In this document: positions 25,337-37,630 of the stretch, piece by piece
Numbering within the stretch: position 1 is the first letter of the stretch
Layout: every line of letters starts with the position of its first letter
NCBI GenBank assembly: GCA_946481095.1
Contig: CAMLML010000040.1
Location: 1 to 37,630, forward strand
Direction: 5' to 3'
Source: an uncultured Cellvibrio sp.
GTDB taxonomy: Bacteria > Pseudomonadota > Gammaproteobacteria > Pseudomonadales > Cellvibrionaceae
Length of the DNA: 37,630 bases
Translations under genes and position numbers: made by a program
The notes under the pieces: model-generated
The model's database searches: none
What the model was told of the DNA's origin: nothing
What the model saw: only the letters and a program-made list of their open reading frames with translations

Positions 25337-28282
25337 ATGCTGACCGACATCCAAAATCCCGACCCCAAAAATCCAATGCATACGGACGCACATTCTGGTT
25401 CCAGTAGCCTTGCTGCTACTGCACCAGGTCAATTACGGGTTATCAAACGCAACGGCACTGTCGGCAGTTTTGATGCCAGCAAAATTGCAGTGGCTTTGAC
25501 AAAAGCTTTTTTGGCAGTTGAAGGTGGAACAGCAGCCGCTTCTTCCCGAATCCATGAGAAAGTCGATAGCCTTACCAAACAGGTAGTCGCAACTTTTAAA
25601 CGCCGTATGCCTTCCGGTGGCACCATCCACATCGAAGAAATTCAGGATCAGGTCGAACTAACCCTGATGCGCGCAGGCGAACAAAAAGTTGCCCGCGATT
25701 ATGTCCTCTATCGCGAAGCACATGCACGCGCACGCGCGGAGAAATCAGCCGCAGCCCAAACTCCCGACACAGACTACCCCAACATTAATGTCACCAAATC
25801 GGATGGTTCGCGAGTTCCCCTGGATATCAACCGTATGCGCACCATTGTGCGTGAAGCCTGTTCCGGGCTAAAAGGTGTAGAAGAAAAAGCCATTCTCGAT
25901 GAAGCCATGCGCAACCTTTACGATGGCGTGGCTGCAAAAGATGTGAATACATCTCTGGTGATTACCGCTCGTACCCTCGTAGAAAAAGAACCCAACTACA
26001 GTTTTGCCACTGCACGTTTGCTGTTGGATAAACTGCGTGCTGAAGCTCTCGGCTTTTTAGGCATTGCCACAGAAGCAACCCAATCCGACATGGAGCTCTA
26101 CTACGCGCGCGCGCTGCCTGTTTACATTAAAAAAGGGGTTGAGCTGGAACTGGTTTCCCCTGAACTCTTGAATTTTGATTTGGAAAAGCTTGGTAAGGCC
26201 TTGATTCCAGATGGAGATTTACAATTTACCTATCTCGGATTGCAAACCCTTTACGACCGTTACTTCATCCACAGCAATGATGTGCGCATCGAACTGCCAC
26301 AGATATTCTTCATGCGCGTGGCAATGGGTCTGGCCTTGAATGAAATTAACCGCGAAGAACGTGCAATTGAGTTTTACCGATTGCTGTCTTCTTTTGATTA
26401 CATGAGTTCAACGCCAACCCTGTTTAATTCAGGCACCCTGCGTCCCCAGTTGTCTTCATGTTATCTGACCACTGTACCGGATGACCTCTATGGTATTTAC
26501 GGCGCCATGCAAGACAATGCCATGCTCAGCAAATTTGCTGGCGGCCTGGGTAACGACTGGACACCGGTACGTGCATTGGGCGCTTACATCAAAGGTACCA
26601 ATGGCAAGTCACAAGGTGTTGTCCCCTTCCTGAAAGTTGCCAACGACACCGCGGTTGCGGTCAATCAGGGTGGCAAACGTAAAGGTGCTGTTTGTGCCTA
26701 TCTGGAAACCTGGCATATGGATGTCGAGGAATTTCTGGAGCTGCGCAAAAACACCGGTGATGATCGCCGCCGCACCCATGACATGAACACCGCCAACTGG
26801 GTACCCGATCTATTCATGAAGCGTGTGTTTGATGATAAAGATTGGACTCTCTTCTCACCTAATGATGTACCTGATCTGCATGATTTATATGGCAGTTCTT
26901 TTGAAGAGCGCTATGAACACTACGAACGTGAAGCGGCAGCTGGCAAAATCAAGGTCTTCAAAACTGTCCGTGCTCTGGATTTGTGGCGCAAGATGCTGGG
27001 CATGCTGTTCGAAACCGGACATCCATGGATCACTTTCAAAGACCCATGCAACCTGCGCAGCCCGCAGCAGCATGTAGGTGTGGTGCATTCATCCAACCTG
27101 TGTACCGAAATCACACTCAACACCAAAGCCGGCGATGAGATTGCTGTGTGTAACCTCGGCTCGGTGAATCTGGCGCAGCACATTGTTGATGGCAAACTGG
27201 ATCAAGCCAAACTTGAGCGCACGGTCAAAACTGCCATTCGCATGCTGGATAATGTGATCGACATTAACTACTACGCCGTTGCCACCTCCAAGCAATCCAA
27301 CGTTCGCCACCGCCCTATTGGCCTTGGCATTATGGGTTTCCAGGATGCACTCTACGATCAACGCATAGCCTACAGTTCGCAAGCCGCCGTGGAGTTTGCT
27401 GATACCTCAATGGAAGCTGTCAGCTATTACGCCATCAAAGCCTCCTGTGAATTGGCACAAGAGCGAGGCAAGTATTCTACTTTTGACGGCTCACTCTGGA
27501 GCAAAGGCATTCTGCCCATAGACTCTATCGAGATACTGGCCAAAAACCGTGGCGACCAATACATCAAAGTTGATCGCAGCAAAACCTTTGACTGGGACAG
27601 CCTGCGTGAACAAGTCAGAGCCAAAGGTATGCGCAACTCCAATGTGATGGCGATCGCCCCGACAGCGACTATCTCCAACATCACCGGTGTAACCCAATCG
27701 ATCGAGCCGACTTATCAAAACCTTTATGTGAAATCCAACCTTTCTGGCGAATTCACCGTAGTAAACCCACATCTGGTTCACGACCTGAAGTCCCGCAATT
27801 TGTGGGATGCCGTAATGGTCAACGACCTGAAATATTACGAAGGTTCTGTACAAAAAATTGATCGCATTCCGGATGATCTGAAAGCGATTTACGCCACAGC
27901 CTTCGAAGTCGAACCCAAGTGGATTGTAGAAGCCGCCAGCCGTCGTCAAAAGTGGATCGATCAGGCACAAAGTTTGAACCTCTACATTTCTGGCGCTAAC
28001 GGTAAAAAATTGGATGTCACCTATCGCATGGCTTGGTACAGCGGTTTGAAAACCACTTATTACCTGCGTGCTTTGGCTGCAACCACCACTGAAAAATCCA
28101 CCATTACTACCGGTGCATTGAACGCAGTGAGTTCAGGCGCAAGCAGCGGTGGCAGCATAGCCGCCGCACCAGCACCAACCGCCAAACCCGTAGCCAGCGT
28201 TGCAGCGCCTGACTTCGGTGAAGCAGCGCCAGTGCCAAAAGCTTGTTCGATTGATAACCCGGATTGCGAGGCTTGCCAGTAG
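25337..28282 (+). CDS. nrdA: Class Ia ribonucleoside-diphosphate reductase, alpha subunit, with two ATP-cones
   Basis: NrdA reduces ribonucleoside diphosphates to deoxyribonucleotides with NrdB. The 981-residue protein has two N-terminal ATP-cone domains: residues about 33-131 (VIKRNGTVGSFDASKI to DYVLYREAHARARA) and 150-238 (INVTKSDGSRVPLDINRM to DKLRAEALG). Two cones are also found in Pseudomonas aeruginosa NrdA. The catalytic barrel carries SSCYLTTV and AVCNLGSVNLA (redox cysteines), NLCTEITLNT (thiyl-radical Cys and Glu) and TYYLRALAATT (radical-transfer Tyr pair). The tail has CSIDNPDCEACQ, the flexible disulfide-exchange cysteines. An Ala/Ser/Pro-rich linker of about 60 residues precedes the tail. 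The ATG has AGGAG upstream. Regulation by NrdR, and perhaps DnaA, is suggested by boxes in the leader. Confidence 0.96.
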   Translation: MLTDIQNPDPKNPMHTDAHSGSSSLAATAPGQLRVIKRNGTVGSFDASKIAVALTKAFLAVEGGTAAASSRIHEKVDSLTKQVVATFKRRMPSGGTIHIEEIQDQVELTLMRAGEQKVARDYVLYREAHARARAEKSAAAQTPDTDYPNINVTKSDGSRVPLDINRMRTIVREACSGLKGVEEKAILDEAMRNLYDGVAAKDVNTSLVITARTLVEKEPNYSFATARLLLDKLRAEALGFLGIATEATQSDMELYYARALPVYIKKGVELELVSPELLNFDLEKLGKALIPDGDLQFTYLGLQTLYDRYFIHSNDVRIELPQIFFMRVAMGLALNEINREERAIEFYRLLSSFDYMSSTPTLFNSGTLRPQLSSCYLTTVPDDLYGIYGAMQDNAMLSKFAGGLGNDWTPVRALGAYIKGTNGKSQGVVPFLKVANDTAVAVNQGGKRKGAVCAYLETWHMDVEEFLELRKNTGDDRRRTHDMNTANWVPDLFMKRVFDDKDWTLFSPNDVPDLHDLYGSSFEERYEHYEREAAAGKIKVFKTVRALDLWRKMLGMLFETGHPWITFKDPCNLRSPQQHVGVVHSSNLCTEITLNTKAGDEIAVCNLGSVNLAQHIVDGKLDQAKLERTVKTAIRMLDNVIDINYYAVATSKQSNVRHRPIGLGIMGFQDALYDQRIAYSSQAAVEFADTSMEAVSYYAIKASCELAQERGKYSTFDGSLWSKGILPIDSIEILAKNRGDQYIKVDRSKTFDWDSLREQVRAKGMRNSNVMAIAPTATISNITGVTQSIEPTYQNLYVKSNLSGEFTVVNPHLVHDLKSRNLWDAVMVNDLKYYEGSVQKIDRIPDDLKAIYATAFEVEPKWIVEAASRRQKWIDQAQSLNLYISGANGKKLDVTYRMAWYSGLKTTYYLRALAATTTEKSTITTGALNAVSSGASSGGSIAAAPAPTAKPVASVAAPDFGEAAPVPKACSIDNPDCEACQ

Positions 28283-28403
28283 CCCTCACCCCAGCCCTCT
28301 CCCGGAGGGAGAGGGGGTTAAAACACCAGGATTCAATATTTCAGCTCTCCACGAAGGAGGGTACAAAGTCCCCTCTCCCTCTGGGAGAGGGCCAGGGTGA
28401 GGG
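28282..28403. repeat. Paired extragenic palindromes, CCCTCTCCC family (site 4)
   Basis: Two inverted units (28282-28317 and 28371-28403): AGCCCTCACCCCAGCCCTC at the left end and the matching GGGCCAGGGTGAGGG at the right end, with a short palindrome inside each. It fills most of the nrdA-nrdB gap and could form a long hairpin between the two messages, letting the two subunits differ in mRNA stability. Confidence 0.85.
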
Positions 28404-28448
28404 AAAACCGCAACACCAAACAGAATTAAACGATCAGAGAGGAACACC

Positions 28449-29711
28449 ATGCTAAGTTGGGACGATTTCAACTCAGAAGAAACCACAAAAGAAGCCGCAC
28501 GCGAAGTTGCTCGCCAGGAAACCCTGAGCCCTCAAGTGCAATCCCAGGCGCGTCCAGTAAACGATACCCCGGTCAATACACAATTTGCCGAAAGTGCAAA
28601 AGAAGAAGGCATCAGCCCTGAGCTGGCCAAAGCACGCTCTACCCTCGCCCACCTCGACCCGGCTCCCGGCCTTGAAGAATTACAAATGGGCGCAGCGCGC
28701 ATTCAGGTAGATGACAAACGCATGATCAACTGCCGCGCTGACCTCAACCAGCTGGTGCCCTTCAAGTACGACTGGGCATGGCAGAAATATCTTGATGGCT
28801 GCGCCAACCACTGGATGCCACAGGAAGTGAACATGACCGCTGACATTGCGCTCTGGAAAAACAGAGAGGGTCTGACCGAAGACGAGCGCCGCATCGTCAT
28901 GCGCAGCTTGGGTTACTTCTCTACTGCTGACTCATTGGTTGCCAACAATCTGGTATTAGCCATTTACCGTTTGATCACCAACCCCGAATGTCGCCAATAC
29001 ATTTTGCGTCAGTCATTCGAAGAAGCGATTCACACCCACGCCTACCAATATTGCATCGAATCCCTGGGCATGGACGAAAGTGAAGTCTTCAACATGTACC
29101 GTGAACTGCCCTCAGTCGCCAACAAAGCCGCCTGGAGTTTGAAGCACACCCAAACTTTAGGTAATCCCACTTTCACCACCGGCACACCCGAAACCGATCA
29201 GGAATTGCTGCGCAATTTAGTCGCATTTTATGTAGTGACCGAAGGCATTTTCTTCTACTGCGGTTTCAGCCAAATCCTGAGCATGGGCCGCCGCAATAAA
29301 ATGACCGGCGTCGCCGAACAATTCCAATATATTTTGCGCGACGAATCCATGCATTTGAATTTTGGTATCGACGTAATCAACCAAATCAAATTGGAAAACC
29401 CACACTTGTGGACGGCAGAGTTCCAACAAGAAGTGTTGCAAATGATTTTGGAAGGCACTGAATTGGAAATTCAATACGCCAGAGACTCAATGCCCCGCGG
29501 CGTCCTCGGCATGAACGCTTCCACCATGGAAGAATACCTGCACTTCATCGCGAATCGTCGTTGTGCACAACTTGGTTTGAAAGAACAATTCCCTGGTGCG
29601 CAAAATCCATTTCCGTGGATGAGTGAGATTATGGATTTGCGTAAGGAGAAGAATTTCTTTGAGACGCGCGTAATTGAATACCAAACTGGTGGTGCGCTTT
29701 CTTGGGATTAA
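28449..29711 (+). CDS. nrdB: Class Ia ribonucleoside-diphosphate reductase, beta (radical) subunit
   Basis: NrdB holds the diiron-tyrosyl radical cofactor and passes the radical to NrdA. In the 420-residue protein the metal-site helices are visible: TADIALWKN (Asp ligand), [16 protein letters not shown] (Glu and His ligands, with the radical Tyr four residues after the His, as in E. coli EtIHsrsY), [14 protein letters not shown] (Glu) and [11 protein letters not shown] (Glu and His). The C-terminus GALSWD is the flexible tail that docks on NrdA. The N-terminal 75 residues are a low-complexity extension beginning MLSWDDF, which repeats the LSWD of the tail. GAGAGGAACACC before the ATG is a good ribosome-binding site. 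It is cotranscribed with or regulated alongside nrdA across the repeat element. Confidence 0.96.
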
Positions 29712-29722
29712 CAACCCTTGTC

Positions 29723-29753
29723 GTCATTCCTGCGAAGGCAGGAATCCAGCGAC
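29723..29753 (+). repeat. REP-like extragenic palindrome (copy 2)
   Basis: GTCATTCCTGCGAAGGCAGG continues to GAATCCAGCGAC; the core ATTCCTGC-GAAG-GCAGGAAT is a perfect hairpin with a four-base loop. It is the same family as the element at 8758-8786 in the opposite orientation. It begins 12 bp after the nrdB stop. Confidence 0.8.
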
Positions 29754-29791
29754 TTTAAAAACGGATCAGGCTGTTCCGGATCGAATAACCC

Positions 29792-29853
29792 AAACCGCTA
29801 TTGAGTTAGTCAAAAAAATGAATTTTTTGGTGAAGCTTGGTAGCGGTTTTTTT
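29792..29853 (+). terminator. Composite hairpin terminator after nrdB
   Basis: AAACCGCTA (29792-29800) pairs perfectly with TAGCGGTTT (29841-29849), and within the loop CAAAAAA pairs with TTTTTTG. The outer stem runs into seven T (29847-29853). It ends 14 bp before the next gene's ATG, so it separates nrdAB from the accessory region. Confidence 0.65.
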
Positions 29854-29866
29854 GTTGGAGATATAA

Positions 29867-30694
29867 ATGGAAGATGCGATTAAATCAATAAAAGCATATC
29901 TTTACGACAGAGACAGCAGCCCTCTTACAGGTGCCTATTTAATAATTTGGTGCATATGGAACTTTAGGCTTTTACTCATCATATTTTCCTCTGATTCCAT
30001 AAATATTAAATTTGTTAACATTGAATACTATCTCTTTCAGCCAAGTTATTTTTTTGACTATTCATGTATTTTCGGCCCAATTTGGGTTTATGTGATGCCC
30101 CTAATATTGGCGTTATTATATCTGCTTGCACTTCCTCACTTCTCATTAAAAATCTATGAAAAAACCTTGGAACATAGAAAAAAACTTAATGAAAAAAAAC
30201 AAGCAATAGAAAATCAAGTATTACTTACAAAAGAAGAAAGCATAAAGATAAGAAGAGAAACATATAGAGCAGCTGAAGAATATGAAGAAGAAATAAGAAA
30301 AAAGGATGAATTAATTTCCGATCTTAGATACAGACTTGAAGAAATCAACAGAAAAGATCAAGAAAAAATGGAATTCGTAACTAACGAACAGTTAACAGAA
30401 AACAAAAAAATGGAAATTCCTGAATTAAGCAGTGAGGCAAAAATTATATTGAAAGAGGCAAGCCTAGATTCACATGGAACAGTTATGTACCTTAGATATT
30501 CAGATGGCGTTGAGTTAAGCTCAAACAATAGAGACTTCTTAAAAGGTAAAGAAAGAAGAGAAATTGCAAAATGGGAATCAGCACTACGAGAACTTATCGA
30601 CCAAGATTTATTAATTGAACGCGGTCATAATGGTAACACATACGAAATAACGGATATTGGTTACAAAATTGCCGACAAAATTATATTGGGTTAG
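29867..30694 (+). CDS. Membrane protein with coiled coil and C-terminal winged-helix-like domain, unknown
   Basis: Not a family I can name with certainty. Residues about 20-40 (SPLTGAYLIIWCIWNFRLLLIIF) and 70-93 are membrane segments. Residues about 97-180 are a charged coiled coil (EKTLEHRKKLNEKK to RLEEINRKDQEKM). The last 85 residues (ELSSEAKIILKEASLDSHGTV to ITDIGYKIADKI) look like a small winged-helix domain that I recall at the end of various predicted effector or defence-associated proteins (LLxEAxxDxxGxI, ARWExALxELxxxGLI, TxxGYxxAD). A GGAG ribosome-binding site lies seven bases before the ATG. Codon use is very A-rich compared with nrdB. The anchor-coil-domain layout suggests a membrane-tethered sensor or effector; this is inference. 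Confidence 0.75.
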   Translation: MEDAIKSIKAYLYDRDSSPLTGAYLIIWCIWNFRLLLIIFSSDSINIKFVNIEYYLFQPSYFFDYSCIFGPIWVYVMPLILALLYLLALPHFSLKIYEKTLEHRKKLNEKKQAIENQVLLTKEESIKIRRETYRAAEEYEEEIRKKDELISDLRYRLEEINRKDQEKMEFVTNEQLTENKKMEIPELSSEAKIILKEASLDSHGTVMYLRYSDGVELSSNNRDFLKGKERREIAKWESALRELIDQDLLIERGHNGNTYEITDIGYKIADKIILG

Positions 30695-30699
30695 CGTCG

Positions 30700-30780
30700 G
30701 GATTTATTTTTTGATCAATCAAACCCGGCACATGTAGATCGGGTAGCGACCCGTGTCTGTGAAATGAGATGGATAAAAGC
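30700..30780 (+). repeat. Intergenic repeat element of the accessory region (copy A)
   Basis: It begins GATTTATTTTTTGATCAATC and includes the hairpin CGGGT-AGCG-ACCCG (30740-30753), then a GAAATGAGATGGAT-type end. It is alignable over about 80 bp with 35000-35078, with many matches including a conserved hairpin stem but different loop. It precedes the KTSC gene. Confidence 0.75.
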
Positions 30781-30799
30781 ATCATAAAGGTGACGCACT

Positions 30800-31006
30800 A
30801 TGATCAAATGGATAAACGTAAACTCAACGGCTATAAGAAAAATTGGCTATGACGTAAAATCAATGCAAATGTATATAGATTTCGAAGATAGCAATCCTAT
30901 TTATACCTATTGCAGAGTACCAGAAAGTGTATTTAATAGTTTTATATCCGCTCGATCCAAAGGACAGTTTTATCACCAATTCATAAAAGATAAATACGAG
31001 TGTTAA
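30800..31006 (+). CDS. KTSC-domain protein
   Basis: A 68-residue protein that is one KTSC domain: VNSTAIRKIGYDVKSMQMYIDFEDSNPIYTYCRVPESVFNSFISARSKGQFYHQFIKDKY. This follows the family pattern S-x-x-I-x-x-(I/V)-x-Y-D-x, a central Y-x-Y-x-x-V-P and a terminal F-x-x-x-(I/V)-(R/K)-x-x-Y. The domain resembles the C-terminal part of some lysyl-tRNA synthetases, but its stand-alone function is unknown. AAGGTGACGCACT before ATG is a good ribosome-binding site. It follows copy A of the intergenic repeat. Confidence 0.85.
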   Translation: MIKWINVNSTAIRKIGYDVKSMQMYIDFEDSNPIYTYCRVPESVFNSFISARSKGQFYHQFIKDKYEC

Positions 31007-31044
31007 TTCACATATTTTAGCTTCCCGAAAAGAGATCATGTCAA

Positions 31045-32295
31045 ATGAATGACCATACGATATCTATAAGAATAGAAGACATAGAAGGAAAACAATTTGA
31101 ATTTAATACACTGAAAAATTTCTATTATTTTATAAAGGAAGAATGTAAAGCATGGCAGGATGCATACAACAAACCAACCTTAACTGGCACTCGAGCCGAA
31201 TGCACACAAATACTATCGACGCTCTCCCCCATAGTTATTGAAATAGAACGATGGACAGAGGAAGCAAGAAATTGGGATGCATCAACGACCCAATATAATG
31301 TACATAATCTAATGCACCGATATTCAGGTACATTTAAAACTCAATGGGTCTACAGCAAAAGCATACTATTTACTCAACTGCTCGATTGCCAAGAAAAATT
31401 CGGAGGCGAAGCAGCAAATGCATTTATTGCCTACACTCAAAGAAATAACCTGTTAAACCCTTCAATCTATCATAATTTCATAGGCATCATGTATGCCTAT
31501 GAAATAAGCAACCAAGACAGTGAAATATTAAAAAGAAGAAACAGTGAAAAAAAATCCTTTTATAATTTACGAAATGACTTAGAAAATTCCAGAAATGAAC
31601 TTATTGAATCAGTTGAGCTTTTTAAAAAGGCAACTGATGAATGGAAAGAATCTACCCAATCAGACTGGAACGAATGGTATAAATCAACAGGCGAACAATG
31701 GAATAATTGGATCACATCTGTAAATGAATATTGTGAATCTGATACTTCAGAAAGAAGAGAAAAATTTATAAGCTTCATGGATAGCTGTAAAATAAGAATT
31801 GAAGATTTAGAAAACACCTATAAAGATAAATTAAAATTAGAAAAACCAGCAGAATACTGGAATAAAGCCGCAGCCAAATATAAGATTCAGGGAAGATGGT
31901 GGATTTCATCATTAATATTATTAGGTCTGCTGGGGATGATGATGCTTTATTTTTTCTTTACAAGCTGGCTTCAAGGAAAAGAAATGGGAATACACTTAAA
32001 TAGTGTACAAGGAATAGCCATATACGGATCATTTCTTGCAGTTTTTGCATTTCTAATAAGAGCTCTTTCCAAGCTAACATTTAGTTCATTTCATTTAATG
32101 CGTGATGCAGAAGAAAGAGAACAGCTCACCTACTTATATCTTTCACTGAGTAAAGAACACACTGTTGATGAATCTTCCAGAAGCATAATATTGCAGGCAC
32201 TATTTAGCAGAAGTGAAACAGGATTGTTAACAAATGAATCCGGACCAACAATGCCAGGGTTAAATGAAGCTATAAAATCGGCAACAAATAGATAA
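31045..32295 (+). CDS. Probable DUF6161-family membrane protein with coiled coil
   Basis: A 416-residue protein of unknown function. Residues about 1-150 are a soluble, helix-rich region. Residues about 165-275 are a Trp-rich coiled coil (SVELFKKATDEWKESTQSDWNEWYKSTGEQWNNW) with regularly spaced Trp. Two membrane segments follow at about 290-310 (WWISSLILLGLLGMMMLYFFF) and 325-345 (GIAIYGSFLAVFAFLIRALSK). The cytosolic tail LMRDAEEREQLTYLYLSLSKEH to LLTNESGPTMPG resembles the end of DUF6161 proteins; that naming is from memory and tentative. No strong ribosome-binding site precedes the ATG. The next gene starts 23 bp downstream on the same strand, so the two form a likely two-gene unit. Confidence 0.75.
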   Translation: MNDHTISIRIEDIEGKQFEFNTLKNFYYFIKEECKAWQDAYNKPTLTGTRAECTQILSTLSPIVIEIERWTEEARNWDASTTQYNVHNLMHRYSGTFKTQWVYSKSILFTQLLDCQEKFGGEAANAFIAYTQRNNLLNPSIYHNFIGIMYAYEISNQDSEILKRRNSEKKSFYNLRNDLENSRNELIESVELFKKATDEWKESTQSDWNEWYKSTGEQWNNWITSVNEYCESDTSERREKFISFMDSCKIRIEDLENTYKDKLKLEKPAEYWNKAAAKYKIQGRWWISSLILLGLLGMMMLYFFFTSWLQGKEMGIHLNSVQGIAIYGSFLAVFAFLIRALSKLTFSSFHLMRDAEEREQLTYLYLSLSKEHTVDESSRSIILQALFSRSETGLLTNESGPTMPGLNEAIKSATNR

Positions 32296-32318
32296 GAAAG
32301 CAAAAAGGGAAATTACTC

Positions 32319-33023
32319 ATGTACGAAATTATATTTTTAGCTGTAAGCACAGCAATAACAACAGCAGTTAGCAGCATTATAAAAAGGTTAATTGAAAATC
32401 ATGAGTGGGGAAAGCGAAAGAATAAAAATAACTCTATAGAAACAATAACACCTTTATTAAATAGCGAAATAAAAAATCACCCACTGATAGTTGAACATCA
32501 TTTCAGAAAATTCTTGAAGTACAAAATAACTAACCCCGAAATAGAATCCATACTATCTTCTAAAAGTCCATTGTATTTATTCGATTTATATAAGACAGCA
32601 AAAAAATTCACACATCATGAAAACGGAAATTTCTTTTTTAAGGAATCTTATAACACCGATTTCCTCAGGAAAAAATTTAATAAAAATGGCAATATGTATT
32701 ATTATTTTTATTCGTTTATAGGCTTTATGCTATTACTTTATTCAGATGTAATAATAGATAATATTGGCTTTCAATATTTTCCTGTAATAGCAGTTATGAT
32801 ATTAATTTGTATCCCGTATGCTTTTCATAATATCAATAAAACTTTTGATTTAAAGCTTGCCGAACAATTTATAGAATATACCAAACCAAATGCGTCAGAA
32901 AAAATAGAAACTCAAGAAAACATTAACATTCCAACCAAATCACAAGTAAAAAAATCAATTGGTTATCTAAAGAATTTTTTAAGAAATCTATCAAATCATA
33001 AAAAACCAATAATTCCTGATTAA
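32319..33023 (+). CDS. Membrane protein, unknown, partner of the preceding gene
   Basis: Not recognised. The 234-residue protein has an N-terminal membrane helix (YEIIFLAVSTAITTAVSSII), a Lys/Asn-rich soluble stretch (35-120), then two further membrane segments at about 128-147 and 150-170 (YYYFYSFIGFMLLLYSDVII, IGFQYFPVIAVMILICIPYAF) and a basic Lys-rich tail. AGGG lies nine bases before the ATG. It is tightly linked to the DUF6161-like gene, and both are membrane proteins with large cytosolic parts, which suggests a complex. Codon use is strongly A/T-biased. Confidence 0.7.
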   Translation: MYEIIFLAVSTAITTAVSSIIKRLIENHEWGKRKNKNNSIETITPLLNSEIKNHPLIVEHHFRKFLKYKITNPEIESILSSKSPLYLFDLYKTAKKFTHHENGNFFFKESYNTDFLRKKFNKNGNMYYYFYSFIGFMLLLYSDVIIDNIGFQYFPVIAVMILICIPYAFHNINKTFDLKLAEQFIEYTKPNASEKIETQENINIPTKSQVKKSIGYLKNFLRNLSNHKKPIIPD

Positions 33024-33034
33024 CGCGGTGGTGG

Positions 33035-33062
33035 GGGATTTATTTCTAATCAGAGCATCATG
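33035..33062 (+). repeat. Intergenic repeat element (copy B, internally deleted)
   Basis: GGATTTATTT followed by AATCAGAGCATCATGAA matches the two ends of copy A (GGATTTATTT... and ...AAAGCATCATAAA) with the hairpin part missing. It follows the two-gene membrane unit. Confidence 0.45.
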
Positions 33063-33167
33063 AACAACAAAATAGCCATTCTAATAATCAATAAATCCAA
33101 GTCAGTTATGCCCATCAATATCGATGCATTTTCGGTTGCGGATGGGCCGAAGAGGAAGATTAATTAA
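33060..33167 (+). CDS. Short ORF, 35 codons, doubtful
   Basis: MNNKIAILIINKSKSVMPIN continues to a Lys-rich end (GPKRKIN). No good ribosome-binding site precedes it and no family is recognised. It may be a gene remnant between the repeat element and the next secreted-protein gene rather than a functional gene. Confidence 0.2.
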   Translation: MNNKIAILIINKSKSVMPINIDAFSVADGPKRKIN

Positions 33168-33227
33168 AGGTATGTCGGCTCGTTGAGCCTGAATCCTAAC
33201 AGAAACATTTTTGCCATTAAGAACATC

Positions 33228-33746
33228 ATGATTCGATTTTTGCTGATTACAATATTTAGTATTTCTTCTTGGTCAATAGCCAACGAAGAGAAAAGTCTTG
33301 TTATGGGAACTTGGAAAAGCTGCGGCGGAACAACACATCAAATACTAGATGATGGCAGCTACTTAAGAATCGGTAGCGGCTCAACGGTTACATTTTATAA
33401 AAACGGCCGTTACGAGCTTTTTTCGCTTGACGGATATACCGATTTAGAATGTCAAAACCTTAAATTCCGCTCTGGGTTAAAATCAAAAGGAAAATATAAA
33501 ATATTAAGAAAGACAGAAATAAACCGTGAAGAAGGACCTGTATATGAAATAAAACTTACCGGCTGGTATGGACAAAAACCATGCACGACCTACTTTATTA
33601 TCACTGAAAAATTCATTCTCCCTGCAGACAACCTTTGTACAGAGGTAGATGAAAAAAAATTGAGATTCAGAAGTAATGATTTGTTTAAATTTTATAAGAC
33701 CCCAAAAGCACCATCAGAAAAAATACAACCAAAAAAACTGACCTAG
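33228..33746 (+). CDS. Small secreted/periplasmic protein, unknown
   Basis: Not recognised. ATG at 33228 was chosen because MIRFLLITIFSISSWSIANEE is a clean signal peptide. The longer frame starts with TTG at 33183 and would bury the signal. The mature part of about 153 residues is beta-rich, opens with MGTWKSCGGTTHQILDDGSY and holds five cysteines (CGG, LECQN, KPCTT, NLCTE), compatible with disulfides in the periplasm. The opening GTW and the alternating beta pattern resemble lipocalin-like proteins, but this is weak. No close partner gene is evident. Confidence 0.65.
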   Translation: MIRFLLITIFSISSWSIANEEKSLVMGTWKSCGGTTHQILDDGSYLRIGSGSTVTFYKNGRYELFSLDGYTDLECQNLKFRSGLKSKGKYKILRKTEINREEGPVYEIKLTGWYGQKPCTTYFIITEKFILPADNLCTEVDEKKLRFRSNDLFKFYKTPKAPSEKIQPKKLT

Positions 33747-33765
33747 TTGTGTTACCGGAAGGGAG

Positions 33766-33785
33766 GAATTTATTTTTGATCAAGC
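33766..33785 (+). repeat. Intergenic repeat element (copy C, partial)
   Basis: GAATTTATTTTTGATCAA reproduces the left end of copies A and D. The rest of the element is diverged. It lies just before the gene at 33825. Confidence 0.55.
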
Positions 33786-33824
33786 GCGATTGTGCAGGTT
33801 GGGCAAACATCTAACGAGTAAGAT

Positions 33825-34256
33825 ATGGATAACAATATTTATCAAACACCCAAATCCGAATTGGAAATAATAGATGAGCTTCCCAACGTTCAACTTTGGA
33901 ATCCTCATGTTGCTGGAGCATGGAGCTTAATTTTTACACCCATATTTGGATCAGTGCTGATCAAAAAAAACTGGTTAACGCTGGAGGAAACGAACAAAGC
34001 TAAAACTGCAACTATTTGGCTCTACGCAAGCATTATAATCATTGTGATTTCAAACTGGATGCCTATTTTTTCTTTAATTTATATCGTAATTTGGTACTTT
34101 GCTTTTTTAAAAAAACAAGTTGATCACCTAAATATAAATAAAATTAAATACAGGAAAAAACCTTGGCGAAAACCAATAGGTATTGCGTTTGCGGCATATA
34201 TTGGAATTATTATCTTTTTCGTACTTATTATGACAATTCTTCAACGAACAATATAG
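33825..34256 (+). CDS. Small membrane protein with N-terminal NIYxxPxxxL motif
   Basis: A 143-residue protein starting MDNNIYQTPKSEL, then three membrane segments (about 32-46, 62-82 with WLYASIIIIVISNW, 84-95 region, and 117-138). The N-terminal N-x-Y-x-x-P-x-x-x-L tag is shared with the gene at 34492 and is common in small membrane proteins of Gammaproteobacteria. The remaining sequence does not match that of 34492. Function unknown. Weak ribosome-binding site (ACGAGTAAGAT). Confidence 0.65.
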   Translation: MDNNIYQTPKSELEIIDELPNVQLWNPHVAGAWSLIFTPIFGSVLIKKNWLTLEETNKAKTATIWLYASIIIIVISNWMPIFSLIYIVIWYFAFLKKQVDHLNINKIKYRKKPWRKPIGIAFAAYIGIIIFFVLIMTILQRTI

Positions 34257-34280
34257 ACGAACTACTGCACAAGTGGAAAG

Positions 34281-34314
34281 CGACCCGCGTGTGCGTAGTG
34301 CAATACATCAAAGC
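34281..34314 (+). repeat. Intergenic repeat element (copy E, right half)
   Basis: CGACCCGCGTGTGCGTAGTG continues to CAATACATCAAAGC. This matches the right half of copy D (CAACCCGCGTGATCGAAGTG then ATGTATCAAAGC). The left half is missing. Confidence 0.6.
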
Positions 34315-34370
34315 ACCAGAAAACAATTATTATTGATAAACCTATTTATAACTCTATTTAAGGAACCACT

Positions 34371-34478
34371 ATGTTTAGATTGATGGTGTTAGTGCTGTTA
34401 GGTTGTTTGCGGTTTTGGATTGATCGGAATGATGTTGTTGAAAATGAAAATAGATACGCTAACAAAAACATAAATTAA
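34371..34478 (+). CDS. Short ORF, 35-residue hydrophobic peptide
   Basis: MFRLMVLVLLGCLRFWIDRN and a charged tail. AAGGAACCACT is a good ribosome-binding site directly before the ATG, better than that of several neighbours. The first 12 residues resemble a lipoprotein signal (LVLLGC), but the peptide is short and could be a truncated lipoprotein gene. The next gene starts 13 bp later. Confidence 0.4.
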   Translation: MFRLMVLVLLGCLRFWIDRNDVVENENRYANKNIN

Positions 34479-34491
34479 CAAAGAAAAAATT

Positions 34492-34935
34492 ATGAATGAC
34501 AAGAATATTTACAGCTCACCTGAAGCTAATTTGAATAATTTTACAAAACAAGATGTGCCAAGACTGGAAAAGTTGGATCTAATAGCAAAATGGCAAAAGT
34601 GTTTGGTATACACATTTTTGGTTTATTTTATTTGCAGCGGTATTTTGCCTGGCATCTCGGAAAATTATGCAGTGCTGGTACAGCTCTTTATTTATCTTCC
34701 CATTTATTTGGCAATAATCATTTTTAACGGCATTTTATGTTGGCAGATATACAGTCGTACGGTTGCGGTATTGATGATAATTTTAGGGATCATTCCTATC
34801 ATTAACTTTCTAGTGGTGTTAATCGCCAGCAGTCGCGCCACTAGCCAAGTCAGGAAAGGGGGTTTTAAAGTAGGATTCTTGGGAGCAAATCGCAAACCGA
34901 TTCAAGAAGCGATAAAAATGGCGCGTGTGAATTAA
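34492..34935 (+). CDS. Small membrane protein with N-terminal NIYxxPxxxL motif
   Basis: A 147-residue protein starting MNDKNIYSSPEANL, with three predicted membrane segments (about 42-58, 63-83 LVQLFIYLPIYLAIIIFNGIL and 91-110) and a basic cytosolic tail (RATSQVRKGGFKVGFLGANRKPIQEAIKMA). The tail resembles the C-terminal gene remnant at 37095-37162. Function unknown. AAAGAAAAAATT before ATG is a weak ribosome-binding site. Confidence 0.65.
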   Translation: MNDKNIYSSPEANLNNFTKQDVPRLEKLDLIAKWQKCLVYTFLVYFICSGILPGISENYAVLVQLFIYLPIYLAIIIFNGILCWQIYSRTVAVLMIILGIIPIINFLVVLIASSRATSQVRKGGFKVGFLGANRKPIQEAIKMARVN

Positions 34936-34999
34936 CGATTTAAAAATTACCTATAAATAAACAAATCAAAATAAGGACAAATAAATAAAGGTACGGATG

Positions 35000-35078
35000 G
35001 ATTTATTTTTGATCAATCAAACTCGGTACATGTAGGACGGGTCGCAACCCGCGTGATCGAAGTGAGATGTATCAAAGC
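35000..35078 (+). repeat. Intergenic repeat element (copy D)
   Basis: The best partner of copy A: GATTTATTTTTGATCAATC, ACATGTAG, hairpin CGGGT-CGCA-ACCCG (35038-35051) and GAAGTGAGATGTATCAAAGC. The hairpin stem is kept while its loop differs from copy A. It lies upstream of the interrupted lipoprotein gene. Confidence 0.75.
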
Positions 35079-35110
35079 GTTACGAAAAATTATTACGCAG
35101 GAATAAATAG

Positions 35111-35491
35111 ATGAAAAACTGTATTGTAGGACTGCTAATTTTATTGATTACCGGGTGCGCAAATACATTTAAAGAGCCGCCCAAAAAGCTTGATCGAAAA
35201 AGTTTTTTTAATGATCAAAGTGATAACAACAAGCAACTTAAAATAATTCGAACCGGTCCTCCATTTTTTCCAATGAATGCCCTCAACGATAAACAACTCG
35301 GGTGGTGTGTTGCACAATTTGATGTACCTGAAAGCGGTATACCTGAAAATATTGAAATTCTAGAATGTAGTCCCAAAGAATACTTTGAGTATGGATGCAA
35401 CTGAATTGTAAGCCAGTTAAGGTATTCACCAGTAGGATTACCAGCCACAAAAGCGCGATTCATATGTAATTTTAGAATTTCCAAAAAATAA
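35111..35491 (+). pseudogene. TonB_C-domain lipoprotein gene interrupted by an in-frame TGA
   Basis: The first frame (35111-35404) encodes a 97-residue lipoprotein: signal ending ITGC, then the start of a TonB C-terminal-type domain (PPFFPMNALNDKQLGWCVAQF to IEILECSPKEYFEYGCN). After TGA at 35402-35404 the same frame continues 28 codons to TAA at 35489 with IVSQLRYSPVGLPATKARF and a closing CNFRISKK. This is exactly the missing end of a TonB_C domain (compare AAIEQWKFET and AVIHFKI in the intact neighbour at 35569). A single nonsense change, for example in a Trp or Arg codon, would explain it. AGGAATAAATAG before ATG is a good ribosome-binding site. It could be a pseudogene, a stop that is read through, or a sequencing error. 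Confidence 0.75.
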
Positions 35492-35568
35492 GGATTCACT
35501 GATAGAAGGGATTTAATTTAATTAACGCAAAAAAAATACATCAAGCAAGACAAAAAATAGGAAACACA

Positions 35569-36159
35569 ATGAAAATACAATATGCACTAGTCTTATTAAC
35601 CTCTCTAATAGCATTGAGTGCTTGCAATACCCAACAAACAGAAAACACTTCTTCAGCAGCAACTACAACTGAAGCAGTTGAATCAGTTGTAGCTGAAGAA
35701 GAATATGTATTGCCATCAGAAAATGTTTTGGTCTATCAAACTTATACATTAGAAGAAGTAGCTGAAAAATCCGGTAAAGTCTTGGGACTTTTAGATCAAG
35801 ATCTAATGCCAGTTGTGATTGTTGCTCCCTATTACCCCAAAAATGCATTTGTCGCAAAAATAGAAGGCACAGTAAAAGCAGAGTTTACTGTACCAAATGT
35901 TGGCTCCAGAGTTAAACAAATAAAAATTCTCTCCAGTCAACCGGATGATAGTTTTGGAAAAGAAGCTTTAGCTGCCATAGAACAATGGAAATTTGAAACA
36001 GCAAAAATAAAAACCACAAAATATACCATTACAAACGTTACGGCCGTAATCCATTTTAAAATTGAAAACGGAAAACCTACTTGCTATATAAATGATGTTA
36101 ATAGCTCACACAGTTTTTATCCGCCAGCACCATTTCCATGTAATCTGAGTGCAGAATAA
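35569..36159 (+). CDS. Lipoprotein with TonB C-terminal-type domain
   Basis: A 196-residue lipoprotein: signal MKIQYALVLLTSLIALSAC (Cys19), an acidic Thr/Ser/Glu-rich linker, then at about 78-165 a TonB_C-type domain (VVIVAPYYPKNAFVAKIEGTV, LSSQPDDSFGKEALAAIEQW, TAVIHFKIENG). Free TonB_C domains on lipoproteins are common and their partners are usually unknown; it lacks the proline-rich spanning region and membrane anchor of a working TonB. A C-terminal extension contains two cysteines (PTCYINDV, FPCNLSAE). It is a tandem relative of the interrupted gene upstream. AGGAAACACA precedes the ATG. Confidence 0.78.
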   Translation: MKIQYALVLLTSLIALSACNTQQTENTSSAATTTEAVESVVAEEEYVLPSENVLVYQTYTLEEVAEKSGKVLGLLDQDLMPVVIVAPYYPKNAFVAKIEGTVKAEFTVPNVGSRVKQIKILSSQPDDSFGKEALAAIEQWKFETAKIKTTKYTITNVTAVIHFKIENGKPTCYINDVNSSHSFYPPAPFPCNLSAE

Positions 36160-36198
36160 AAGTTGGAATATGTAGCAATTATTTAATCAGGTACCCTT

Positions 36199-36594
36199 AT
36201 GCAAGCTTTTATTCGAGTCAATTTTCATGATGAAAATGGAGTGACTGAATACGAAATACAACCATCTGAAGCACTATATGCGATTTTCTACAATGAAGCA
36301 GAGGCATTATTTTCTTTAAAGGAAAGATTTGAACTGGATGTTATCGAACAATTTCGCCCAAGAAATATCGGGCAAAAAGAAGATATTGCTATTCATGACC
36401 CTTACGAAGCACTTAAATTTTGGGCCAGACTACGTAATTTTTTGCGCAAAAAGGCTGAAACAATGGAACACATGAATAGCAATAAATTAAAGGCCTATTT
36501 CGAGCTAAGTTTCAGTGTAGGTGAAATTCATAGCCATTTAGAACACTCAATCAAGCAAAAGCAAAAAATTGAAATACTGTTTATTCCGGGTTAG
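36199..36594 (+). CDS. Small cytosolic protein, unknown
   Basis: Not recognised. A 131-residue soluble protein without signal or membrane segment, rich in Glu and Phe. It starts MQAFIRVNFHDENGVTEYEI, includes a central helical region (YEALKFWARLRNFLRKKAETM) and ends IEILFIPG. Small acidic single-domain proteins of this size in arrays with repeats are often immunity proteins of polymorphic toxins, but no motif proves it. CAGGTACCCTT precedes the ATG. Confidence 0.6.
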   Translation: MQAFIRVNFHDENGVTEYEIQPSEALYAIFYNEAEALFSLKERFELDVIEQFRPRNIGQKEDIAIHDPYEALKFWARLRNFLRKKAETMEHMNSNKLKAYFELSFSVGEIHSHLEHSIKQKQKIEILFIPG

Positions 36595-36668
36595 GACGAT
36601 AAAGAGGACTTAATTTATTTTTAATTCATCTGCAAAATGTATAGCTGAAAGCTGAGAAGGTAATAGTG

Positions 36669-37091
36669 ATGAATGAATTGCAATTTTGGGACTTGATTCA
36701 AAAATCACTTGTTGAAAGTAACGGTGATCGAGAGAAGCAAATTGAAATTTTAGAATTGCTACTTGCTAAATTGCCGGAGCACGAAATTATTGAATACACG
36801 GATTACTTCGGGGAAATGCAGGATTTGTGTTACAGCGAGCTTTTTTGGGAGGTCGCTACAGAATTAATTGGGTTCGTTTCAGATGACGGATTTCAGGACT
36901 TTCAATGTTGGCTAATATCTCAGGGAAAACAGTTTTTTATGGAGACAGTTAATTCCCCCAAATCATTGTTAAAATTAAAGAAACGTACAGGAAATAAATT
37001 AGACGTTTCTTTCGAGTTTGAAGCGTTTTATTACGCACCAATACAAGCTTTTGAAAAGAGTACCGGAAAAGATTGGGATGATTGGGCATAA
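36669..37091 (+). CDS. DUF4240-family protein
   Basis: A 140-residue soluble protein matching the DUF4240 pattern: FWDLIQKSLVESNGDREKQIEILELLLAKLPEHEI, then YxExxxLCYSELFWEVATELIG, the hallmark SDDGFQDFQCWLISQGKQFF and a C-terminal EFEAFYYAPIQAFEKSTGKDW. Start at ATG 36669; the GTG one codon upstream is ignored because GAGAAGG lies at the right distance for the ATG. Function of the domain is unknown; relatives are frequent in small-gene arrays next to SMI1/KNR4-type immunity genes. Confidence 0.85.
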   Translation: MNELQFWDLIQKSLVESNGDREKQIEILELLLAKLPEHEIIEYTDYFGEMQDLCYSELFWEVATELIGFVSDDGFQDFQCWLISQGKQFFMETVNSPKSLLKLKKRTGNKLDVSFEFEAFYYAPIQAFEKSTGKDWDDWA

Positions 37092-37094
37092 CAC

Positions 37095-37162
37095 GGCGAT
37101 TTACAGGACGGAGTGAACCTATTGAAGCAGCGATTGAAAAAGCCAGTAGCCTGCCACCATAG
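37095..37162 (+). pseudogene. C-terminal gene remnant
   Basis: Directly after the DUF4240 stop, a frame reading CGG CGA TTT ACA through to TAG at 37160 encodes FTGRSEPIEAAIEKASSLPP. It resembles the tail of the membrane protein at 34492 (FLGANRKPIQEAIKMA). No start codon or upstream coding sequence is present, so it would be the end of a deleted gene. Confidence 0.35.
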
Positions 37163-37446
37163 AATAAACTTGAACCGAATTAAAATAGATTACAACGTTG
37201 TTGGTTAAAAAAATTCTAACCACACGCTTTTAATCTAGTTGCTACCTCATTACATGAACGCTAATATACGCGCCAAGTTAGCTTGCTGTAAATACACAAT
37301 TTCAAGCCAACTTAATACTATGAGTTTAAATAACGATGATAAAAGCTAATGTCATAGAAAATGATAAATACAGCTGCTGTTGTCCAAAATAAATTTTTAT
37401 ATTTAAATTCTTAACAATAATCCATAATCTACCTGGAACCTGAATT
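37163..37446. other. AT-rich intergenic stretch, nothing recognised
   Basis: Between the gene remnant and the last lipoprotein gene. No RNA gene, terminator or repeat copy was recognised; a minus-strand frame here lacks coding character. It probably holds the promoter of the gene at 37447, which cannot be placed by eye. Confidence 0.5.
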
Positions 37447-37630
37447 ATGAATAAATTTTTAATTTTAGTTATCGCGACCCTGCTTACTACTGGCTGTGTA
37501 AGTACAAAAAACATTCCGCTCAAAAGTGAATCGACCGCATCTCTTAAAGACAGCGAACTTAGCGTTTCCAAACGTGAAAAACCAGGGTTTGGCGCAATGA
37601 CAGCAGGAAAAGCAATGTTTGGTGCAATTG
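37447..37630 (+). CDS. Lipoprotein, 5' part, unknown
   Basis: Runs off the window end. MNKFLILVIATLLTTGCVST is a lipoprotein signal (LTTGC, Cys17), followed by a charged stretch and KPGFGAMTAGKAMFGAI, which recalls a family of small gammaproteobacterial lipoproteins with a Gly/Ala-rich hydrophobic segment. The role is unknown. A weak GGAA lies ahead of the ATG. Confidence 0.7.
   Translation, partial: MNKFLILVIATLLTTGCVSTKNIPLKSESTASLKDSELSVSKREKPGFGAMTAGKAMFGAI

Follow-up and report, generated by a model that had tools for sequence, protein, structure and literature searches.

An array of small, A/T-rich genes with related elements between them lies 3' of nrdAB in an uncultured Cellvibrio sp. 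The DNA analysed, called the window below, is a stretch of 37,630 nucleotides (nt) of contig CAMLML010000040.1 (assembly GCA_946481095.1), and the array takes up its last part, positions 29712-37630. With open reading frames (ORFs) chosen by reading, it holds eleven full genes (g1-g11) and one cut gene (g12), all on the + strand, and the gaps as far as g11 are 23 to 235 nt long. When full, the element in the gaps consists of a left part (GATTTATTTTTGATCAA), a hairpin headed by GTAG, and a right part (GAAGTGAGATGNATCAAAGC); its six candidate copies are called A to F.

28449..29711, + strand: nrdB, bounding the array on its left; its product shares 83-95% identity with NrdB at 19 loci of one genus
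29722..29745, + strand: CGTC-tagged palindrome CGTC-ATTCCTGC-GAAG-GCAGGAAT, directly 3' of nrdB, from sequence
29774..29852, + strand: conserved block of about 80 nt, 74-80% kept 3' of nrdB in 11 of the 19 loci (blastn)
29867..30694, + strand: g1, 275 amino acids (aa), membrane protein by reading; phage-family relatives, function unknown (phrog_22645, 5e-11)
30700..30784, + strand: element A, full; left part, GTAG-AT-CGGGT-AGCG-ACCCG, right part
30800..31006, + strand: g2, 68 aa, KTSC domain (PF13619, 4.8e-20)
31045..32295, + strand: g3, 416 aa, DUF6161, AbiZ-like (PF19658, 8.8e-45; PADLOC AbiZ, 4.9e-23)
32319..33023, + strand: g4, 234 aa, unknown, membrane protein by reading
33030..33060, + strand: element B, left-part-like only, marginal (35 of 500 shuffles as good; 4 bits)
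33228..33746, + strand: g5, 172 aa, unknown, N-terminus signal-like by reading
33757..33826, + strand: element C, with the left part but no longer the hairpin; the right part apparently enters the g6 start codon
33825..34256, + strand: g6, 143 aa, small membrane protein by reading
34262..34318, + strand: element D, without the left part; one hairpin arm of the middle and the right part remain
34492..34935, + strand: g7, 147 aa, small membrane protein by reading
34999..35081, + strand: element E, full; core GTAG-GA-CGGGT-CGCA-ACCCG
35111..35404, + strand: g8, lipoprotein-like, partial TonB_C domain; weak paralog of g9 (37% over 43 aa, E 2e-4)
35569..36159, + strand: g9, lipoprotein-like, TonB_C
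36199..36594, + strand: g10, 131 aa, unknown
36598..36640, + strand: element F, left-part-like only, marginal (7 of 500 shuffles as good)
36669..37091, + strand: g11, 140 aa, DUF4240 (PF14024, 6.3e-31)
37447..37629, + strand: g12, lipoprotein-like start, cut by the window end

The GC content at third codon positions is 0.20-0.41 in g1-g11 versus 0.52 and 0.58 in nrdA and nrdB, which bears out a preliminary description of this DNA, where base composition and codon use were said to be unlike those of nrdAB. The same description proposed an orphan immunity-gene array. As the main content this is not supported: the genes are of several kinds (AbiZ-like/DUF6161, KTSC, DUF4240, TonB_C lipoproteins, small membrane proteins), no immunity family is named among g1-g11, and the window stops short of any toxin gene. 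Its statement that there is no recombinase agrees with family library searches, which gave no recombinase or integrase family among g1-g11. A tRNA-linked island was rejected, since ARAGORN finds no tRNA in the window.

How many gaps carry the element? The copy at 34996-35085 (copy E) was locally aligned to the 11 other gaps, with 500 dinucleotide shuffles per gap. The scores for gaps 30695-30799, 33747-33830 and 34257-34491 were 100, 36 and 42, and no shuffle equalled any of them. Two gaps are marginal, namely 33024-33227 (score 28, 35 shuffles as good) and 36595-36668 (score 25, 7 shuffles as good). The six remaining gaps are at chance level (123 to 427 of 500 shuffles as good); a repeat that seemed likely by eye between g8 and g9 was dropped (217 of 500). 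Thus, of the five gaps in which one element had first been noticed, those at 30700, 33766, 34281 and 35000 are upheld and that at 33035 is marginal; the gap before g11 was not on that list. The full copies A and E are 81% identical across 73 nt. A sequence model of A, C, D and E gives 81, 77, 43 and 42 bits on its own training copies, as is expected by construction; elsewhere in the window its best score is 6 bits, with 33035 at 4 bits, apart from one copy that matches its own reverse strand with 10 bits. Element E also weakly matches its own reverse complement (E=0.026). The GTAG plus CGGGT-N4-ACCCG hairpin occurs twice in the window versus 0.01 expected, and the right part occurs twice at up to 3 mismatches, again versus 0.01. 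The left part alone has 3 matches at up to 3 mismatches versus 0.67 expected, and three were reached in 2 shuffles. The left-only copies are therefore weak evidence.

All window elements are on the + strand, and they start at most 20 nt past the upstream stop (borders by reading), the exception being 34999, which is about 64 nt past it. Different copies lack different parts. This agrees with the earlier remark that the gaps differ by lost left, middle or right parts, although the deletion itself is something we infer. The position between stop and start, on one strand, with the right parts of C, A and E finishing near the next start codon, would also suit a repeated regulatory leader, that is a promoter, terminator or RNA leader of co-regulated genes. 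Such a leader is very unlikely. The window has no Rfam match at gathering scores, so a known RNA family was rejected, the full copies fold no better than shuffles, different copies miss different parts, and sister species have unrelated repeats at the same place.

What is the element, if not a leader? The core of A and E is GTAG-N2-CGGGT-N4-ACCCG, that is GTAG, 2 nt, a 5-bp stem and a 4-nt loop. The CGGGT-N4-ACCCG hairpin had been described as the middle of the element in general; it is present in A and E, whereas C has no hairpin and D has one arm. Excerpts of PMC8266576 describe the repetitive extragenic palindromic (REP) sequence of the Marinomonas REPtron Mb, a system of group 3 of the REP-associated tyrosine transposases (RAYTs), as a 10-nt palindrome interrupted by 4 nt and standing 2 bases from GTAG. 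The GTAG head, the 2-nt gap, the perfect 5-bp stem and the 4-nt loop are common to both, and so are repeats that lie between genes and are concentrated at one place. The window hairpin therefore looks like a GTAG REP of group-3 type, as judged from its sequence, and the window element would be RAYT-derived. It differs from REPtron Mb in that the window is without a RAYT, the hairpin stands in only two copies, and the element is set in conserved 80-nt flanks between many unrelated genes. Each element has one GTAG REP, and no CTAC partner is seen in the window sequence. REPs of a second class, tagged CGTC, appear in excerpts of PMC3733652; the CGTC palindrome at 29722-29745 is the sole match to its pattern within the window.

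Is there a wider pattern at this site? We compared 19 nrdB loci, each from a different genome; the genus sample has 21 genomes, of species other than that of the window. We take the genus of the 19 loci to be Cellvibrio, in a family that also includes Gilvimarinus (locus L003, genome G003). By its NrdB the window host belongs to the same genus. Gene content 3' of nrdB differs among the 19 loci, with nrdB as their common left border. The flank comparison covers 16 of 17 pairs (G044 is out, nrdA not being found on its piece; L119, L127 and L128 have no upstream piece; the G041 piece before nrdA is about 6.1 kb). Over 7.9 kb at these 16 loci, 36 of 137 ORFs 3' of nrdB have a relative in another locus versus 57 of 96 before nrdA, GC is 0.42 versus 0.49, and the median ORF is 168 versus 296 aa.

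The accessory genes at the site are membrane proteins, lipoproteins, toxin-antitoxin genes and defence-type genes. The family search covered 130 of 131 ORFs 3' of nrdB (one very long ORF was left out, and ORFs made of repeats had been removed beforehand). Among the top 25 of 185 and the top 25 of 81 families there are RAYT/Y1_Tnp (6), TonB_C (5), nucleotidyltransferase (4), BrnT (3), HepT (2), Imm11 (2), SIR2 (2), HerA (1) and QatD (1), and single proteins have a RES domain or an AHH nuclease domain. Apart from RAYT and TonB_C, these matches in the relatives, like the AbiZ-like gene of the window, recall a defence or toxin-antitoxin hot spot, but PADLOC matches only one (g3) of the ten window proteins tested. 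In L118, at 2159-3401 nt past nrdB, a RAYT gene is directly followed by the ORF with the AHH nuclease domain. The nrdB flank of L110 (G032) is a block of opposite-strand ORFs with a HerA-type ATPase, so that there a defence-like island replaces the small-gene array.

Palindromic repeats of two types (28 of type 1, 11 of type 2) were found at 11 of the 19 loci. When full they are imperfect palindromes of about 150 nt with GTAG...CTAC ends, and L112 and L118 have pieces of about 40 nt. By these features, by their two REPs inverted around a spacer and by the RAYT that often adjoins them, the repeats of the relatives are REP doublet-forming hairpins (REPINs), of which excerpts of PMC3116915 give an account. 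Their peculiarity is that they are direct repeats and lie often at unit borders. The window element has just one REP, set in flanks, and not an inverted REP pair. All 39 are in the direction of nrdB (+) and within 9.1 kb of it, though most loci reach 17 kb, and a + ORF precedes 34 of 37. The repeat profiles started from 22 copies at these very loci (14 of type 1, 8 of type 2), all 3' of nrdB; with profiles of this origin, no REPIN repeat was found before nrdA in up to 7.9 kb at 16 loci. Among the matches listed for one G033 repeat and covering 100 nt or more of it, 15 are at sites 3' of nrdB (the query included) and 12 elsewhere, the eight genomes concerned amounting to about 39.5 Mb; these counts show a concentration at the site but not its size, as the query came from an array. 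It had been stated that genome-wide repeats unrelated to this region would speak against a special array; in the relatives the repeats do occur elsewhere too, but they are concentrated at the nrdB site.

RAYT-family genes (family F0) lie 3' of nrdB in 7 of the 19 loci, the L128 copy being a fragment. The family matches PF01797, relatives of its L118 member are named REP-associated tyrosine transposase, and its motif NPVKHG fits NP(L/V)(R/K)xG, the RAYT motif printed in the part of PMC2817692 available. The RAYT adjoins type-1 or type-2 repeats in 6 of the 7 loci and its own REPs in L118. In the nrdB array of G038, the REP GTAGGGCGGGTCATGACCCG before the RAYT has the geometry and the stem of the window REP. 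A NrdB scan of genome contigs kept 80 loci of at least 80; no F0-family RAYT was found in these 80, and type-1 repeats, the type covered by the search, were found only in L002, a genus member. In L119 there are two RAYT genes, at 1973-2434 and 6731-7192 nt past nrdB, one between type-1 and one between type-2 repeats.

Do the units shared between species end at repeats? We took homologous blocks of at least 100 nt, with repeats masked, from 9 of the 11 repeat-bearing loci (L112 and L118, with short pieces only, were left out), and discarded those that began no more than 720 nt from nrdB in both loci. Of the 64 ends of between-species blocks, 42 have a repeat no more than 60 nt away in both genomes. 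In 2000 random placements the mean was 0.1 and the highest count 2, and none came to 42. The ends at repeats comprise 33 of 40 for RAYT units and 9 of 24 for other units; 17 of the latter 24 are near a repeat in at least one genome. For example, F11, a gene of 75 aa, has type-1 repeats on either side in L123 and type-2 repeats in L115, at similar distances. The L121 block of RAYT, repeat, nucleotidyltransferase and HepT recurs in L123, where further repeat-bounded genes precede it; at that place L121 has two repeats 28 nt apart. On the other side, neither end of the largest common block, 4.8 kb in L120 and L121, coincides with a repeat.

This border pattern is the expected trace of deletion and exchange between direct repeats, and since the repeats of the relatives are direct repeats, recombination between them has the substrate that it needs. 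One alternative is dispersal of REPs only. The nrdB flank would then be an ordinary landing site, where REPs and REPINs are harmless past stop codons and mark units without moving them. REPs near the 3' ends of upstream ORFs in the genomes analysed (excerpts of PMC3733652) and the clustering of Marinomonas REPs near their own transposase gene (PMC8266576, in part) favour it, and 10 of the 12 fetched core-bearing copies outside the array follow a co-directional gene (ORF table, by reading), much like 34 of 37 at the site. However, blocks between species end at repeats in both genomes above random, with different outside neighbours, and we regard dispersal alone as possible but rather unlikely. 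A second alternative is that the RAYT cuts REP ends and moves repeat-gene-repeat units, so that a Y1 (HUH) enzyme would underlie an integron-like system. Units of this form do recur in different contexts, as F11 does, and the RAYT stands beside type-1 or type-2 repeats, or in L118 its own REPs, at all of its loci. Yet plain recombination explains the same borders, and evidence of excision or of circles is lacking, so that RAYT-driven movement seems improbable to us; recombination rather than transposition would move the units.

Should the array then be seen as an integron? A chromosomal integron likewise has co-directional small genes, palindromic spacers and variable content, and integron integrase genes above the cut-off are present in 16 of the 21 genus genomes (e.g. 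G027:C1:3792854 and G032:C2:2994155), possibly marking chromosomal integrons. But every one of them is either separated from nrdB by 560 kb or more or on a different contig (the genomes are drafts, with contig order open), and the repeats of the relatives also occur outside the arrays. The core boxes of attC are RYYYAAC followed by GTTRRRY. Neither box, in the form just given, is found in five of the six window elements, and C holds a single copy of both, in the opposite order, which accords with the original remark that no attC pattern is present. An integron-type cassette array is thus extremely improbable and was rejected.

In place, direction and kind of genes the window and its relatives are alike. 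The repeats themselves are of different families: the best match of the type-1 profile in the window has E=0.02 and is not at the elements, and no homology is claimed from a shared CAATCAA..CGGCACATGTA noticed by eye. Of the 12 array proteins, only g7 and g9 have relatives in the 19 loci, as would be expected from the claim that this is an accessory array of unfixed content, and at the DNA level only g7 has a match there (71% over 128 nt). We searched g3, g7 and g9 in the 21 genus genomes. The sole relative of g7 (G030:C1:3426971) is in an nrdB array, about 3 kb past nrdB, and the best relative of g9 (G036:C73:1276-1755, E 4e-41, the next 7e-11) is about 6 kb past nrdB, between two repeats. 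The left part of the window element, searched exactly or with one mismatch, occurs at five places in 4 of these genomes. One of them, L102 (G038:C2:163455), has a left-part-like GGTTTATTTTTGATCAA followed by GTGTAGGGC, which might be a distant copy of the window element.

Taken together, we hold it somewhat more probable than otherwise that a variable accessory locus lies 3' of nrdB in this genus, made of small foreign-looking genes mostly in one direction with REP-family palindromic repeats between them, a REPtron-type site with cassette-like turnover. A likely scenario is as follows. A RAYT transposase, present at the site in several relatives, would multiply REP-type repeats near itself; the repeats would settle past stop codons, oriented like the preceding gene; and recombination between direct repeats would delete, duplicate and swap gene units, also with related strains. 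The preliminary description had likewise proposed growth by recombination between repeats. In the genus this is supported by the direct repeats and by unit borders at repeats, and the window array would be reshaped through its repeats in the same way, evolving as the arrays of the relatives do.

Several observations weigh against this picture. Before nrdA, only 1 of 96 ORFs is common to at least half of the loci, and in the window none of the 6 ORFs there has a relative; that stretch is thus variable as well, and the two sides of nrdAB differ only by degree. Since 34 of the 37 ORFs preceding repeats are themselves +, gene direction accounts for most of the shared orientation of the repeats. 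The two partial relatives of g3 are both in G040, about 110 kb from nrdB, and do not point to the site. These three points limit our confidence. In addition, the block-end counts are not independent, and the RAYT units are partly common by descent. The window array was compared with other species of the genus only, and no RAYT gene is in the window. Both the GTAG before the hairpin and the perfect palindrome CGGGT-N4-ACCCG occur in only two of the six window elements, A and E, the GTAG being absent from B, C, D and F; 5 of 200 local shuffles yield a pair of GTAG hairpins with this geometry when any stem is allowed; and the full copies have folding z-scores of -0.70 and -0.75, with -2.2 for C and D. 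Finally, the window element was not convincingly found in 144 family genomes. A DNA search gave 0 of 144, an empty result which, having no positive control, shows nothing. A sequence-model search, which scored only 31 of hundreds of candidates per genome under strict filters, gave matches at E<=1 in 71 of 144, the best (E 0.004) inside an ORF of 353 aa. The sole intergenic candidate among the four best-scoring matches checked is G001:C250:11911-11983 (L151, E 0.03).

Why would such a site matter? REPs, RAYTs and variable loci are already known, but the literature searched yielded no one-directional array whose unit borders often lie at REPINs, and no report of gene cassettes bounded by RAYTs or REPINs or of a Cellvibrio nrdB hot spot. 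The literature excerpts at hand treat two questions as unresolved, namely what makes cells retain RAYT transposases and in what way REPs spread. If REPINs flank accessory, toxin-antitoxin and defence-type genes that can be exchanged, they would have a tangible effect, and such a site would offer a testable system for cassette-like gene turnover without an integron. A bolder proposal is that RAYT/REPIN repeats, in place of an integron, build and exchange a cassette array of one-directional repeat-gene-repeat units at a fixed site in this genus, the units being moved or recombined at REPINs, with a domesticated transposase kept to serve the array; we think this improbable. The nrdB flank would also be a place to seek new defence genes in this genus.

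Some minor features of the flank may be added. The conserved block at 29774..29852 holds an inverted repeat, a hairpin followed by T's, which is terminator-like. In L111, L123, L128 and L118 this block of about 80 nt lies 560-780 nt from nrdB, with extra genes between, which include BrnT in L111, L123 and L128. At 1530-5380 nt past nrdB, L113 (G044) has a third, unrelated repeat family (AAAACGGACGTCCTGTCCGTTTTACC...) between genes, in both directions. In the nrdA-nrdB gap of the window (28200-28486), ORFs on both strands translate to HP.PLPEGEG...PSPSGRG, seemingly from a long palindromic repeat, which may be a common dispersed repeat.

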